DNA of 28,474 nt from a virus. A model generated the notes under the pieces. The model had not been told where the DNA came from and did not search any database. It worked only from the letters and a program-made list of their open reading frames with translations. Each line of letters starts with the position of its first letter. Within the stretch, counting starts at the first letter, position 1. Position numbers and translations under genes: made by a program. Positions 4,548 to 26,633 of the stretch are shown here, piece after piece. The stretch lies in the IMG/VR virus record IMGVR_UViG_3300036790_000798, positions 1 through 28,474 of that record; one strand, written 5' to 3'.

Positions 4548-6302
4548 ATGGTTCAACCTCTCACGATCGAATCCATTCAAAAGAATTATCAGGCGGATCT
4601 CAATTGGAGGATGCGAAGACATCCGATGTGGACCCAAAATTATGATTTGTACCGCGACACGGTCATCATCAACCGCCTCACACAGCGCCAGAGCGTGAAT
4701 GTGCCGTACATGAAGAAGACGCTCAAGACGTATCTCACCCAGACGAACTGGCCGGTCGATAACGAGTACGAGGACAAAGGCAACGACGGACAGAAGGAAC
4801 TGTTCCTCAACGCCTATTGGCAGGCGTGCTCAGACCGCTTGCGCCTCGACATCCTTGAGGAAGTGGACCGCAAGCAGGAATGGCTCTACGGTCGTTCGTT
4901 CATGAAGCTGAACATCGTGGACGGCTGGATCAGCATGGAGGTCATTGATCCGCAGGACATTCTCCTCGATCGGTATGCCAACCCGTGGGACATCCACTCC
5001 GGCCGCCGGATCACCCACATCGGGATCTACCGGACGCTCTCAGACATCAAGCGCAATCCGCTGTATGACGCAGAGGCGATCAGTCGGCTTGAGGTGTTCT
5101 TTGCGACGAAACAGGGATTGATTCAGGCGGGGCAGAACAGTCTTGCCGTCGCCGAGCGCTCACAGCGGATGCTCGACATGGGCGTGCCCGATGTGCTTTT
5201 GCCGATGCTTGGGGAGACGTACGTCGAGCTGAACGAAATGCAGTACAAGTCGTGGGACGACGCGAAGCAAGAGGACGTGACGATGGTCTGTGTCACCGCG
5301 AACGGCACCGAGATCCTCATGGACCGTCCGATCACCGATCTTCTCGGCGAGAATCTCACCGACATCCTGAAGTCGTACGGAATGGCCTTCACGATCGCAT
5401 CATGGGCGGGCGACACCGAACGGACGGACGTGTGGAGCGACGGCGGCGCTGATTCGGTCCGAGGATTGAATCTCGTCGCGAACGCACGCTGGAGCCAGAA
5501 GGTTGAGAACGGCACGCTCGTGAACTACGGGATGAACTTCTACGACTCGACGCTCAAAGAAGGCTGGACGCCCGTCGGGTATGATCCGGCGCCATTCGGG
5601 TTCTATCCTTTGCCCGGTCCGCCGAAAGACGTTTTGACGAACGTCCAGATACCCGAGATGGAAGATGTGTTCAACGAGCTCAATTTCATCGGCGGCGAGA
5701 TTCAGGGAGTATCGGGCGCGACCGCTATAGAGAACGGCGACACTGATCCGAACCCGCAAGGCGCGCAGCAGACCGCACAGGAAATTCAGATACTTGCCGC
5801 GAAGGCAAAGCAGCGCGCGCAGAACATTTCGAAATATCACAAGCGTTATTGGGAGGACATCGGCAACATCTTCGTCGCGCTCGTCATGGCGAACGGTTCC
5901 ACGATGACGAAGCCGACGCTCCACAAAAAAGGCCCGAGCGGCAAGTTTTATCCCAAGACACTCGATCTTGAGAAGGTCTATTCGAAACAGGGCTATAAGG
6001 TGGCGGTCGGCTCAAAAGCCGACAAGGAATCGGACGCGCTGCAGAATGTCCAGAAGCTCCAGATCGCCACAGCGCAGTTCCCGAACAATATCCCGCTCCA
6101 GAAGATCCAGAAGCAGAAGACGCTCGACTGGCTCGATCTCACGCCGGAGGAAAAGGCCGAGGTCATGAACTTCGAAGATCAGCAGCCGCCCGGAATAACT
6201 CCGGCGATGCCTCCTAACGGCCCGAAACTGCCCTTAGCGCCGCCTCCTCAGCAGCAAGGTCGAATGCCCCAGCCGAGTCTCCCGCAGCCAGTCGCAGCCT
6301 AA
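4548..6302 (+). CDS. Portal protein
   Basis: A 584-residue protein in the portal position after the large terminase. Features typical of portals are an N-terminal region with TDYxxYRDT-like character (MWTQNYDLYRDT), a beta-rich wing (VNVPYMKK; YGRSFMKLNIVDGWISMEVI; DPQDILLDR), a C-terminal helical stem (ATAIENGDTDPNPQGAQQTA, then long helices), and a proline-rich tail. The portal forms the dodecameric DNA channel at one capsid vertex and docks terminase and adaptor. The start at 4548 (MVQPLTIESIQ) is chosen because the open frame further upstream only shadows the membrane-protein gene. GAGGTCG lies about 13-20 bases before the ATG. Confidence 0.86.
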   Translation: MVQPLTIESIQKNYQADLNWRMRRHPMWTQNYDLYRDTVIINRLTQRQSVNVPYMKKTLKTYLTQTNWPVDNEYEDKGNDGQKELFLNAYWQACSDRLRLDILEEVDRKQEWLYGRSFMKLNIVDGWISMEVIDPQDILLDRYANPWDIHSGRRITHIGIYRTLSDIKRNPLYDAEAISRLEVFFATKQGLIQAGQNSLAVAERSQRMLDMGVPDVLLPMLGETYVELNEMQYKSWDDAKQEDVTMVCVTANGTEILMDRPITDLLGENLTDILKSYGMAFTIASWAGDTERTDVWSDGGADSVRGLNLVANARWSQKVENGTLVNYGMNFYDSTLKEGWTPVGYDPAPFGFYPLPGPPKDVLTNVQIPEMEDVFNELNFIGGEIQGVSGATAIENGDTDPNPQGAQQTAQEIQILAAKAKQRAQNISKYHKRYWEDIGNIFVALVMANGSTMTKPTLHKKGPSGKFYPKTLDLEKVYSKQGYKVAVGSKADKESDALQNVQKLQIATAQFPNNIPLQKIQKQKTLDWLDLTPEEKAEVMNFEDQQPPGITPAMPPNGPKLPLAPPPQQQGRMPQPSLPQPVAA

Positions 6303-11624: not shown

Positions 11625-11638
11625 ACCTCACCTACTTC

Positions 11639-11929
11639 ATGGACGAAGAAGTAAAACTCCCCACGCAGCCCGGCAGTCCGACCTCCGAACACGGCCAGAT
11701 CATGTTTGCGATGGGCAAGATGTTCGGTCGGCTCGATGCCATTGACGCGAAACAAGCCTATGCGAACGGCCGCACCGGGAAGCTTGAAGACCGGATGGCC
11801 GTCGTCGAAGACTGGCAGAGCAAGACCGAAGGCAAGGAAATCGGGATCTCCAAACTCACGCTCGTCATTATGAACGTCGTCACAGGAGTCGTCGCAATCG
11901 TCGCCCTCATTCTTAAATTCGTTAAGTAA
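11639..11929 (+). CDS. XhlA-like membrane-anchored protein (holin-associated candidate)
   Basis: A 96-residue protein with an acidic N-terminus, a helical coiled-coil-like region (about residues 22-65, FGRLDAIDAKQAYANGRTGK, then LEDRMAVVEDWQS), and a single membrane segment at about residues 72-94 ending KFVK. This layout is that of the haemolysin XhlA family, small phage proteins encoded near holins or tail genes. The start at 11639 is chosen because the frame further upstream lies inside the 49-residue gene. Being among structural genes rather than beside the lysis genes, it could alternatively anchor a tail component or act in ejection. Confidence 0.68.
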   Translation: MDEEVKLPTQPGSPTSEHGQIMFAMGKMFGRLDAIDAKQAYANGRTGKLEDRMAVVEDWQSKTEGKEIGISKLTLVIMNVVTGVVAIVALILKFVK

Positions 11930-15948: not shown

Positions 15949-16275
15949 ATGAGGCCTTCAAAATTCAAAAAATATTACAATAGGGATAGAGAACAACGGA
16001 GAATTAGAGGCCGATCATATAACGCACGGGTTCGAGCAATCATTATCGAATTACTTGGCGGTGAATGCGTAAGGTGTCATTTCACCGACCCGCGCGCTCT
16101 TCAAGTGGATCATGTCAATGGAGGAGGCTCTAAAGAAAGAAAAGCAACAACTAGAGGTTTTTACCATGTCATTCTAGAAAACCATCTGTCAAAGAAGACC
16201 CAATACCAATTGCTATGCGCAAACTGTAATTGGATAAAAAGGTTCGAAAATAATGAAACAGCATTGACTTCATAA
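15949..16275 (+). CDS. HNH endonuclease (inserted, AT-rich)
   Basis: A 108-residue free-standing HNH nuclease. Zinc ligands C40-x2-C43 and C90-x2-C93 flank the catalytic D54-H55 in LQVDHVNGGGSKER, and the second half is YQLLCANCNWIKRFE. HNH enzymes nick or cut DNA. Free-standing copies between phage structural genes are usually homing-type elements. The codons are far richer in A and T than those of adaptor and downstream genes, and the basic N-terminus (MRPSKFKKYYNRDREQRRIR) likely binds DNA. It starts 2 bases after the adaptor stop, interrupting an otherwise contiguous virion operon, which supports independent acquisition. Confidence 0.9.
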   Translation: MRPSKFKKYYNRDREQRRIRGRSYNARVRAIIIELLGGECVRCHFTDPRALQVDHVNGGGSKERKATTRGFYHVILENHLSKKTQYQLLCANCNWIKRFENNETALTS

Positions 16276-21470: not shown

Positions 21471-22349
21471 ATGCCCCCGAAAGTTCTCGGCGCACTTGAA
21501 CGAAGACCCGATTCCCGTGACATCCTGCTCGGTTCTGTTCAAGCGCCTGTAGAAATTCCCGCCTCATTTATTCCAGACGTTTCATGGATGGTGAGGAACT
21601 ATCAAGGATCGACGCCTTACTGTGGCGCGCACGCTTCGTCACACTTTCAGGCGATTCTCGAACACGACGTTACGCCTGCCGTAAACGAGCGATACACACC
21701 GCGCTTCTCATGGATAAAGATCAAGGCCATTGACGGCTACCCGCTCGAATCAGGCACGGACATGCGCTCCATCTTCAAATCCCTCACGACTGACGGAGCG
21801 GATGACTTCGAACCGCTTGAGAACGACGTGACGCTCCCGATCGCCACCTATTCCGAGCCGTCTGCCGTCACGCCGGATATGGTGACGAACGCCGGCGGGA
21901 AGAAGATCGGCAGCTATGGTTTCGGAAATACCGATTTTGAATCAATCTGTCAGGCGATCTATCAGAACAAGGCCGTTCTTCTCCTCATCAAGTGCGACGA
22001 CGGATTCTGGGGGACATCGACCCCGACCTTCACCACTCCGGAATACGGTCACTTCATCGTGGCGTACGGTTACTCCGCAGATTTCATTTACATCGTGGAT
22101 TCCGCCGACCCGAACGATGCCTTCGCCTTCAAGAAGATCGCGAAGCAGTACGTCAATTCCCCAACCACTTTTATCTTCGAAGCTGGCACAGCCGTGGACG
22201 TTCCGCCGGCAGTAAAGCAGGCTCTTACGACAAATGTCCCCGTGCCCGCGAGCGTCACGCAAGCGCTTTCGACCGGCCAGCTCACGCTTGCCGAGCAGAT
22301 TCTCAACGATATTGAGGCAGCCCTCACCCTGATCCAAAAAGAGGTCTAA
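21471..22349 (+). CDS. Papain-like (C1-family) cysteine peptidase
   Basis: A 292-residue protein. The opening has the PDSRD element found before many bacterial C1 domains. Q45 in NYQGSTPYCGAHASSHFQ is the oxyanion residue and C51 the nucleophile, replacing the usual CGSCWAF by YCGAHAS. GHFIVAYGY contains the catalytic histidine (H194), and IVDSADPND has Asp (D210) where papain has the Asn of NSW. The C-terminal 50 residues are helical and separate. No signal peptide is seen. Located after the virion operon and before the holin, it could cleave peptidoglycan peptides, act in the virion, or process proteins. GAGGGA lies 4 bases before the ATG. Confidence 0.82.
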   Translation: MPPKVLGALERRPDSRDILLGSVQAPVEIPASFIPDVSWMVRNYQGSTPYCGAHASSHFQAILEHDVTPAVNERYTPRFSWIKIKAIDGYPLESGTDMRSIFKSLTTDGADDFEPLENDVTLPIATYSEPSAVTPDMVTNAGGKKIGSYGFGNTDFESICQAIYQNKAVLLLIKCDDGFWGTSTPTFTTPEYGHFIVAYGYSADFIYIVDSADPNDAFAFKKIAKQYVNSPTTFIFEAGTAVDVPPAVKQALTTNVPVPASVTQALSTGQLTLAEQILNDIEAALTLIQKEV

Positions 22350-22355
22350 AGGTCG
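22348..22355 (+). promoter_or_regulatory. Leader motif AAAGGTCG, copy 3
   Basis: Exact third copy. It overlaps the last bases of the peptidase stop codon and lies 18 bases before the holin-candidate ATG. The intervening leader is A-rich without any Shine-Dalgarno sequence. Confidence 0.4.
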
Positions 22356-22373
22356 AAACCAAGATCAAAAGCA

Positions 22374-22592
22374 ATGCAAATTTCAGCATTCGAACAAGCC
22401 GCGCTCCATGTGTGCAAGGTTGCCGCATGGGTAATCGCCTCCGCCGCGATTCCTGCTCTCCTGACTCTCTATACCGGCAACGCCTATTGGCTTGCGCTCA
22501 CCCCGTTCATTAACGGCATCGGCGCAGGCCTCGTGAAGTGGTCCGGCATTCAAGCTGCGGCAGCCGCGGCGAAGCAGCCCTCCGCACAGTAG
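22374..22592 (+). CDS. Holin candidate (two-span membrane protein)
   Basis: A 72-residue protein with two hydrophobic segments, about residues 13-33 (VCKVAAWVIASAAIPALLTL) and 38-58 (YWLALTPFINGIGAGLVKWS), separated by a short polar turn, and an Ala/Lys-rich tail. Size and layout are those of small class II holins, which open the inner membrane for lysis. It follows the peptidase gene within 25 bases. No sequence signature proves the assignment. Other small phage membrane proteins share this layout. Confidence 0.66.
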   Translation: MQISAFEQAALHVCKVAAWVIASAAIPALLTLYTGNAYWLALTPFINGIGAGLVKWSGIQAAAAAAKQPSAQ

Positions 22593-22593
22593 A

Positions 22594-22681
22594 ACCTCCA
22601 CACCAGTAGCTCTCACGGACGGGGAATCCCAGCTAAGCCGCGCGGCTTGCTCCTACAGGATTGCTACTGGCGTGGGGAGGT
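22594..22681 (+). other. Structured RNA-like element between holin and HNH gene
   Basis: Outer arms ACCTCCACACCAGTAGC (22594-22610) and GCTACTGGCGTGGGGAGGT (22663-22681) pair over about 16 bp with one mismatch and a 2-base bulge. Inside, AATCC (22625-22629) pairs with GGATT (22658-22662), enclosing AGC/GCT and the perfect palindrome AAGCCGCGCGGCTT (22635-22648). The result is a long nested stem of about 88 bases with no T-run, so it is not a simple terminator. It begins 1 base after the holin stop and ends 27 bases before the HNH start. No known riboswitch or ribozyme core was recognised. Confidence 0.6.
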
Positions 22682-22708
22682 CTACCCACAAACATCTGAC
22701 TAACCACA

Positions 22709-23164
22709 ATGTCAGCAACAATAAGTCTCAATCCACAAGGTAAAGAGCATCAACAGGCCAAAAGTCATGTCTACTATGAGCGTAACAAAGAAAGGATATT
22801 AGCTAGGATTAAAAAATATAAGAAGAAACATCCTGAAGTCGCGCGTCGGCATAGTAAACGATGGTATAGGCAAAACGTCATTCAGGCGCGCTTTTATGAC
22901 AGCCGGGTTAAGGCAAAGAAGCACGGCGCTACCGGCACTCATACATTTCAGCAATGGCTAGATCTTAAAGCTAAATATCTATTCTGCTGCTTGGCCTGCG
23001 ACATGAAAGAGCCCTTCACCGATCAAAAAGTCAAACACCTCACCGAAGACCATATTGTTCCCCTGTCACGGGGTGGCTCGCACAACATAGATAACATTCA
23101 ACCGCTATGTTTTCGCTGCAACAACGAAAAGCGCACGAAGAGTATCGATTATAGAAATCCATAA
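22709..23164 (+). CDS. HNH endonuclease 2
   Basis: A 151-residue free-standing HNH nuclease. The long basic N-terminus (residues 1-75, HVYYERNKERILARIKKYKK) probably binds DNA. The catalytic finger has C94-x2-C97, then D114-H115 in EDHIVPLSRGGSHN, then C134-x2-C137 in PLCFRCNNEKRTKS. It is more complete and more canonical than the copy at 15949 and is also AT-richer than its surroundings. It is bracketed by two strongly structured elements (22594-22681 and 23176-23226), an arrangement that suggests a mobile or RNA-associated unit. No Shine-Dalgarno sequence is present (CTAACCACA before ATG). Confidence 0.92.
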   Translation: MSATISLNPQGKEHQQAKSHVYYERNKERILARIKKYKKKHPEVARRHSKRWYRQNVIQARFYDSRVKAKKHGATGTHTFQQWLDLKAKYLFCCLACDMKEPFTDQKVKHLTEDHIVPLSRGGSHNIDNIQPLCFRCNNEKRTKSIDYRNP

Positions 23165-23175
23165 AAGACCGAACT

Positions 23176-23284
23176 CCCCGCGATGGAGAGGTGTTGCTTT
23201 CGACCCAATACCAATCCATCGCGGGGCGCTTGGAAAGGATCCTCCTCGACAGGACTCCCCGTGCTAACCAGCACCAGACGCCCC
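23176..23284 (+). other. Structured 5' leader of the DUF932 cassette (switch-like fold)
   Basis: CCCCGCGATGGA (23176-23187) pairs perfectly with TCCATCGCGGGG (23215-23226). Inside, GGTGTTG (23190-23196) pairs with CAATACC (23206-23212) across a GA/AA internal loop. Downstream, GTGCT/AGCAC (23261-23274) forms a small hairpin. GGGGCG (23223-23228) can alternatively pair with CGCCCC (23279-23284), which would break the first stem. Two exclusive folds just before a gene with a strong ribosome binding site look like a regulatory leader, although no known class was recognised. Confidence 0.55.
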
Positions 23285-23315
23285 TATCCCAGCTCATTTA
23301 CAACAAGGAGAATTC

Positions 23316-24032
23316 ATGGAACAGCTCATTGCACATGTGGGAGCCAGTAAGCTCTCGCGCGATCAACTCGTCACCATCCTTCCGCCGGAAGCGACGGACA
23401 CCTTCAAACCCATCGCCCATTCGGATCTCATCGGGAACGTTCTTGAGGCGCTCTCATACCGGCACATCAACGTGGTCAAGGATGAGTACGCGGTCTCCGA
23501 AGACGGCATGAAGCTCTTCGGGGTCCTCGATCTCGAATCGTCCTTCGAAGGCTGCAGGTTCTCGCTCGGGCTACGCAACGCGAACGACAAGTCCATGCGG
23601 CTTGCGCTCACGATCGGCTACCGGGTATTCGTGTGCGACAACATGGCGTTCCACGGGGACTTCACTCCGGTACTCGCCAAGCACTCAAAACACTTCAACC
23701 TGCAAGACGCGCTTGCGATCGGCATCGACCGGATGCAGCGCAATTTCGAGCCGATGCGGAAGCAGGTGGAGAGCTGGCGAAACTTCCAACTCACCGATGC
23801 CGCTGCAAAGCTCGTCATCTACCGCGCTTTCATCGAGGACGATCTTGAAGCGCCGAAATACCTCTCCCGTGAGGTCCATCGGCTCTACTTCGATCCGCAG
23901 TACCCGGAGTTTCAGCCCCGCACGCTCTGGAGCCTCTCGAACGCGTTCACGTCGGCGTTCAAGGAGCTCGACCCCGTTCCCCAATTCAAGGCGACCGCCA
24001 AGCTCGGCGGTTTCCTCGCTTCGATGAACTGA
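23316..24032 (+). CDS. DUF932 family phage/plasmid protein
   Basis: A 238-residue protein of the DUF932 family, common in phages, plasmids and islands and without an established biochemical role. Family-like parts are FKPIAHSDLIGNVLEALSY, YAVSEDGMKLFGVLDLES, FSLGLRNANDKSMRLALTIG and VFVCDNMAFHGDF, followed by a helical C-terminal half. It is shorter than many relatives of 300 residues or more. A strong Shine-Dalgarno sequence AAGGAG lies 6-7 bases before the ATG, unlike the virion genes. It leads a tight four-gene cassette that starts with a structured leader and ends with a terminator. Confidence 0.85.
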   Translation: MEQLIAHVGASKLSRDQLVTILPPEATDTFKPIAHSDLIGNVLEALSYRHINVVKDEYAVSEDGMKLFGVLDLESSFEGCRFSLGLRNANDKSMRLALTIGYRVFVCDNMAFHGDFTPVLAKHSKHFNLQDALAIGIDRMQRNFEPMRKQVESWRNFQLTDAAAKLVIYRAFIEDDLEAPKYLSREVHRLYFDPQYPEFQPRTLWSLSNAFTSAFKELDPVPQFKATAKLGGFLASMN

Positions 24033-26036: not shown

Positions 26037-26633
26037 CTGTCCCCCCCTGAAAAGTTATCCCCAGCATACGCCTTGCGTGATCCTGCAGGTTTGCTTCAAT
26101 GATGATGTTCCCGAAAGGGAGCGACCGGCCCGACACCCAAAAACCTTTTGACGGTGTCGTTGACAAAGAGCAATCCTGTCTGCGGCCCGGTCAAAGGGTT
26201 TTTTCTTTCCGCATCCTATGCGGCATCGCTGGAAGGGAAACTGAAACGGGCGATGTAAAAGAGTGGCGCGGCTTCTACGACTTCCCCGCGCGCCGGAGTA
26301 GTTCTTTGATTGATGGAATAGCGCCAGTACAGCGACCTTTTCCGGTTTAATCCGAAAGGTGATTGACCGTTGGCCGGGTGACCAAAAACGGCGACAACGA
26401 GCTGGTAGGATGCAAGCCCTACGTCAACAAAAATCGCCGATGGATAGGCCTGAATCGATCGCTCAAGCACCCCATCAATTCCATCACTCAACGAATTACT
26501 TTTACGCCGTTTCATCGCAAACGCCTATACCGAACAAATAGGAACGAGCGACTTCGCCGACCGATCAAAAAAAGACCGGCGGGGAAGTCGCTTATCTACC
26601 CGAACAAAAAGGGTTTAAGAGGGGAAGGGAAAT
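26037..26633. other. About 600 bases without a convincing gene; several hairpins
   Basis: No frame here has convincing protein character. The best candidates are a 99-codon frame on the minus strand (26216-26515) and an 83-codon frame on the plus strand (26099-26350), both doubtful. Structure is visible: CCGCAT/ATGCGG near 26208-26222; a bulged hairpin ACCTTTTCCGG/CCGAAAGGT near 26335-26363; and GCGACTTC/GGAAGTCGC arms with further GC pairing around an A-run (26548-26591). The DnaA-box-like word lies at 26055-26063. It could hold regulatory RNA, an origin or attachment sequence, but none is demonstrated. Confidence 0.5.
26055..26063 (+). repeat. DnaA-box-like word TTATCCCCA, copy 3
   Basis: Third exact copy, between the minus-strand membrane gene and the gene-free region. 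Together with TTTTCCACA at 27219-27227, also one base from a DnaA box, it marks this end of the window as a place to look for an origin. Confidence 0.35.

Follow-up and report, generated by a model that had tools for sequence, protein, structure and literature searches.

An HNH endonuclease gene probably inserted between two conserved hairpin elements in phages of Acidobacteriota

Two hairpin elements, which we call U and D, are conserved structures that occur, among the sequences searched, only in one group of phages, and they are independent of the HNH endonuclease gene that separates them in the window (the whole 28.5-kb virus record analysed here). The nuclease itself looks ordinary, and the hairpins, which match nothing in Rfam, do not depend on it. 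Taking the locus as a whole, we think it probable that a free-standing homing endonuclease gene has inserted where two pre-existing elements with a predicted leader role meet. In a temperate phage of Acidobacteriota, this junction would separate the lysis genes from the DUF932 operon and fall within what we predict to be an untranslated operon leader; homing is likewise predicted, from sequence comparison.

The locus and the phages that carry it

The window encodes a terminase, a major head protein, lysis-type genes and a tyrosine integrase, so the phage is probably temperate; no tRNAs were found in it. Uncultivated phages were found by scanning with the DUF932 protein, the endolysin, the HNH protein and element U; in one group of them, temperate phages, U and D are located after the lysis genes and before the DUF932 gene. 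One copy (L226) is a prophage within a 232-kb contig of an Acidobacterium MAG, and the host phylum is therefore most likely Acidobacteriota. The group consists of little-known viruses of soil Acidobacteria, the end of whose lysis genes is marked by the two hairpins.

Counts rest on IMG/VR, GTDB representatives and the conserved-peptide seeds of the scans. Overlapping cuts of one contig, such as L002, L083, L107 and L315, were counted once, while the near-identical L003 and prophage L226 were entered as two records; hits of a loose D pattern over IMG/VR, mostly chance matches among the matches listed, were left out. As the sequences share ancestry, the p-values given below overstate independence. 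Under strict filters, U and D each occur in one of 200 host-family genomes, there only in the prophage, and neither was matched in about 50,000 isolated phages at the sensitivity used. The initial annotation had recognised no known core in either hairpin, and Rfam, searched at the gathering threshold and at E up to 10, gave no relevant match for U or D. We found no report of these elements in the open-access papers searched, which does not prove their absence elsewhere. They add structured elements absent from Rfam, from phages of a phylum whose viruses have received little attention. The features of the locus are as follows.

22348..22360, plus strand: motif AAAGGTCGAAACC, just 3' of the endolysin stop and 5' of the holin-like ATG, complementary to the D apical loop
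22374..22592, plus strand: small holin-like ORF, its stop codon abutting element U
22588..22676, plus strand: element U, a conserved 89-nt multibranched hairpin (R1 model, conservation in relatives)
22592-22599, plus strand: U box A, GAACCTCC
22677..23168, plus strand: GC-poor inserted segment carrying the HNH gene, missing in relatives
22709..23164, plus strand: HNH endonuclease ORF, 151 aa (Pfam PF01844, E 9e-12; phrog_8660, E 1.5e-20; PDB 4h9d, E 1.5e-5)
23169..23233, plus strand: element D, comprising box A GAACTCCC, a variable stem, an apical loop and box B (R2 model, covariation)
23198-23205, plus strand: D apical loop, TTTCGACC
23224-23233, plus strand: D box B, GGGCGCTTGG
23261..23274, plus strand: second small hairpin, GTGC-TAACCA-GCAC (inspection of relatives' leaders)
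23279..23283, plus strand: box C, CGCCC, with which box B might pair instead of box A (persuasive in a number of relatives, weak for the window, p 0.4)
23305..23310, plus strand: Shine-Dalgarno AAGGAG of the DUF932 gene (from the sequence), 5 nt 5' of the ATG at 23316
23316..24032, plus strand: DUF932 gene, downstream of D (Pfam PF06067, E 2e-6)

The small ORF follows a C39-like peptidase ORF; domain and family searches found no family match for it, so the label "holin-like" rests on its position and size. The YAACCR loop of the second small hairpin recurs in several of the relatives' leader sequences that were inspected.

Conservation of the two hairpins

The nested stem first described upstream of the HNH gene is more stable than expected by chance (MFE −45.4 versus −34.5 ± 3.4 for shuffled sequences, z −3.2) and is kept in relatives. 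Its conserved part stops at 22676, within the 88-nt stem as originally drawn, the last bases of which (from 22677, GAGGTCTAC) are part of the HNH insert. Across related records U is 79–99% identical, and in those lacking HNH the match breaks off at 22675-22676. The R1 model scores U at about 98–117 bits in 13 records and at background elsewhere, with nothing in between. With a mean column identity of 95%, U offers few informative changes: 99.3% of pair cells in the alignment are paired, and two-sided change is seen at two pairs. U is conserved mostly in sequence, with weak covariation. It is much more conserved than the genes beside it, and it is missing from the closer relatives L008 and L009 (DUF932 79% identical) while present in the distant L027 (DUF932 56%) and L310, from which we conclude that U has moved between phages.

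D behaves differently. The 12+7 bp stem reported downstream also exceeds chance (MFE −51.3 versus −32.1 ± 3.6, z −5.3, no shuffled sequence being as stable) and is retained in relatives, and outer pairing widens it to 23169-23233. The R2 model gives 67 bits (E 2e-13) for the single copy in the window. In some 22 records D is found on the coding strand, ahead of whichever gene opens the DUF932 operon: DUF932 itself, a methylase-like gene in L004 or, in L005-L007, an HTH gene resembling the window's 24041 ORF. Its own arms pair at 9.4 of 10 positions versus 6.45 when arms are swapped (0 of 20,000 permutations as good), two-sided changes occur in 12 of 19 pairs (reached by 0 of 500 shuffles), and the covariation score is 0.356 versus 0.153 for shuffled and at most 0.085 for slid alignments. 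The compensatory changes looked for in homologues are thus present, and D keeps its pairing while the stem sequence is rewritten, a pattern of strong covariation. The ends (GAACGUCC and GGGCGYU) are fixed, as is the loop UUCGACC in most records. L006 and L007 are 93–96% identical on either side of D, yet most of the D interior differs between them; such rewriting with end boxes kept is unusual and testable.

Conserved structure with covariation is expected of a cis-regulatory leader RNA, and it is found in D and weakly in U, leader transcription being assumed. On the reading we favour, U and D would function as RNA, within the DUF932 operon leader. It is possible, if rather unlikely, that the hairpins instead close the lysis operon as transcription terminators or sites of RNase processing, without any switching. 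Their placement at the end of the lysis genes suits this, as do very stable GC-rich stems whose sequence is free to change, and short U-rich tails follow in a few relatives, e.g. L006. However, a terminator needs neither a fixed loop nor fixed end boxes, the sequence of U is nearly invariant, and there is no terminator-like site within 22300-23400. In that interval neither a sigma-70-type promoter nor a U-tract terminator was found, and an intrinsic terminator, defined as a GC hairpin followed by a U tract, was set aside.

Shared end boxes and a possible switch

Both elements open on GAAC-N-UCC and, in relatives, close on GGGCG-Y-U. The ends of U in records lacking HNH, GAAC-N-UCC and GUGGGCGUU, are the boxes of D, and in L006 box B of U directly abuts box A of D (GGGCGUUGAACGUCC). 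Because of this common start and end, U and D seem to be tandem representatives of a single class of hairpin. A search for the box A/box B arrangement gave 39 matches, most at this locus, versus one in reversed sequence; some of the 39 fall inside genes at other loci and are likely due to chance. Box-bearing hairpins other than U form tandems with D in L008/L095 and in L015/L016/L017/L028. Those at 5757-5838 of L008 and 5836-5920 of L015 are multibranched, with the same end boxes and with D in tandem, and are unrelated to U in sequence.

Box B may also pair with box C. The B:C pairing spans 7–10 bp in L004-L008 and is poor in L010 and L015; in L006 it reads GGGGGUU/AACCCCC, with letters changed on both sides. 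The combined p of 2e-7 ignores the kinship of the sequences, and for the window itself the pairing is weak. This layout is that of a two-state leader, in which box B of D would switch partners between box A (forming hairpin D) and the downstream box C, while the fixed UUCGACC loop would be a recognition site for a protein or an RNA. We only infer the function of the hairpins, because no terminator or promoter was recognised and because the complementarity between the upstream motif and the loop comes without covariation. That motif, AAAGGTCGWA, is found in about 12 relatives 230–365 nt 5' of D, just before the start of the small ORF, and AAAGGTCGAAACC (22348-22360) is kept in about 12 relatives although the adjoining small ORF itself is replaced. 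When covariation between the motif GGUCGAA and the D loop was sought, L006, L007 and L011 had GGUCGUA without a clearly matching loop, which leaves this pairing unproven.

A bolder proposal, which we put forward tentatively and regard as doubtful, is that the box A/box B hairpins constitute a new modular class of phage RNA. Its members would be interchangeable cassettes arranged in tandem where the lysis genes meet DUF932, their ends and UUCGACC loop fixed and their stems changing fast, alternating between A:B and B:C pairing and possibly pairing with the upstream GGUCGAA, and the junction between them would be the homing target of the HNH gene.

The HNH gene and its insertion site

The HNH gene noted at 22709 was confirmed as an intact ORF that carries the HNH signature and a paired-cysteine signature and is typical of its kind; the PDB entry it matches, 4h9d, is an HNH endonuclease. 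The insert that carries it has a GC content of 0.437 versus 0.553 for the genome, and GC as low as that of the HNH gene is seen in only 0.2% of same-size windows of the genome. The insert lies between the stop at 22592 and the start at 23316, and in empty alleles U joins D. The insert is missing from ten records (L018, L006, L007, L003, L226, L005, L004, L027, L101 and L099). Clean empty sites, in which U runs straight into D, are seen in L018 (U match to 5860, D at 5863-5927) and L006; L007, L003/L226 and L101 likewise carry U and D without HNH between them. It had been suggested that the block 22593-23230 might be a clean insertion; relatives do not gain or lose this block as a whole, and the insert is confined to the HNH segment.

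Three close HNH orthologues were found (window, L083 and L310), and each lies directly 3' of U; as two of these records are closely related, they represent two backgrounds. D follows the HNH gene in both records whose far side is visible, the L083 contig ending inside HNH. In L310, where U scores 97.9 bits, the HNH protein is about 75% (whole alignment) to 78% (best segment) identical to that of the window and DUF932 46%, and the insert is GC-poor as well (0.417 versus 0.523). The stretch of L083 that runs from U into HNH is 98% identical to the window, versus 88% for the endolysin, and an unrelated small ORF has been swapped in exactly between 22361 and 22587. The L083 block from U onward has thus been exchanged recently, and the start of U is the exchange boundary.

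As all three close orthologues stand directly behind U, with D beyond, the data fit U or the U/D junction being a predicted homing target rather than an RNA partner of the nuclease. The gene is probably selfish. The 3' box of U (GGGCGTT in relatives) is missing from the window copy and has been lost in both HNH-bearing lineages (window/L083 and L310), whereas HNH-less copies of U mostly retain box B running into D; entry of the HNH gene therefore looks like the derived state. The gene would have entered a pre-existing U/D junction, with loss of the U 3' box: the nuclease would cut the empty junction, most likely in the part of U nearest its 3' end, which is almost invariant, and recombination would then copy the gene into the cut.

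The initial annotation had raised the possibility of a new RNA-associated homing unit, to be abandoned if the elements occurred without a link to HNH genes. The comparison with relatives does not support such a unit: HNH is missing from the U/D junction in 10 of the 13 U-bearing records and directly precedes D in only two of the D-bearing ones, and the HNH relatives in L317 and L318 (54–55% identical) have neither element. HNH relatives more remote than the close orthologues (27–55% identical) are located elsewhere, with no U or D adjacent. The second suggestion, of two regulators flanking a passenger nuclease, agrees with this anatomy, regulation by the hairpins being putative. A related reading, that U and HNH form one mobile unit in which U travels with the nuclease or is moved by it in trans, HNH-less copies being remnants or non-autonomous derivatives, could account for orthologues at least 75% identical always standing directly behind U and for both the patchy distribution of U and its strong conservation relative to neighbouring genes. 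We nevertheless consider it improbable: the HNH-less copies mostly run through box B into D, both HNH lineages lack that box, so that the insertion looks derived, and the end boxes of U also occur on hairpins not seen with HNH (L008, L015/L016).

Lower still is the probability that the elements act as DNA, as attC-like single-strand hairpin recombination sites or as homology anchors for module exchange: fixed ends around variable interiors, tandem copies, and modules that change exactly at element edges (the small-ORF swap in L083, the differing first genes after D) are in its favour, but most phages have a single copy, no integron integrase was seen, the strand-asymmetric D model score and the fixed place before a ribosome-binding site both suit RNA, and the boxes here (GAACNTCC ... 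GGGCGYT), compared by inspection, differ from the attC core sites (RYYYAAC ... GTTRRRY).

The preferred reading, a free-standing homing gene inserted at a pre-existing junction, has to be set beside other systems in which an HNH gene adjoins structured RNA, as is predicted here. Nucleases of the HEARO/IscB type combine RuvC and HNH domains in several hundred residues. The window protein has 151 aa with an HNH domain only and, unlike in those systems (PMC9755519), the elements match no Rfam family and are also found where the nuclease is missing; HEARO/IscB was ruled out on this and the Rfam result. Group I introns with HNH homing endonucleases likewise place a phage HNH gene near structured RNA, and were ruled out as no relevant Rfam match was obtained and no gene is interrupted. 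The resemblance is closer to free-standing HNH-type homing endonuclease genes of phages, as in T4 (PMC2988022, PMC10448857), some of which are already known at exchange boundaries (PMC10448857). The window gene shares with them a small HNH protein with the catalytic domain, an intergenic, AT-rich setting at a mosaic boundary, empty sites and, here, the same site in two backgrounds (window/L083 and L310); it differs in being inserted between two structured elements, and homing is predicted. The locus is a clear example of hairpins that stand beside an HNH gene and yet are not its partner; screens that match nucleases to structured RNA in their vicinity should be read with this in mind.

Another small HNH gene, from a different family, lies at 15949-16275 of the window (GC 0.398). 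A relative of it (45% identical) is found directly after D in L003/L226, before a further box-like hairpin, and the junction has therefore received two kinds of HNH gene. In L317 (3500-4600), an HNH relative (55%) is followed by a strongly folded, intron-like-looking stretch without an Rfam match; an intron there was considered, and Rfam gives no support for it.

Two other segments of the window, at 26207-26315 and 26489-26621 and mostly outside convincing genes, are 91–95% identical to L101 (11610-12397), versus only 70% for the integrase nearby. A further segment of about 154 nt (11638-11791) is 90–92% identical to sequence just 5' of the endolysin in L083 and L003, another location, and has thus changed place between genomes.
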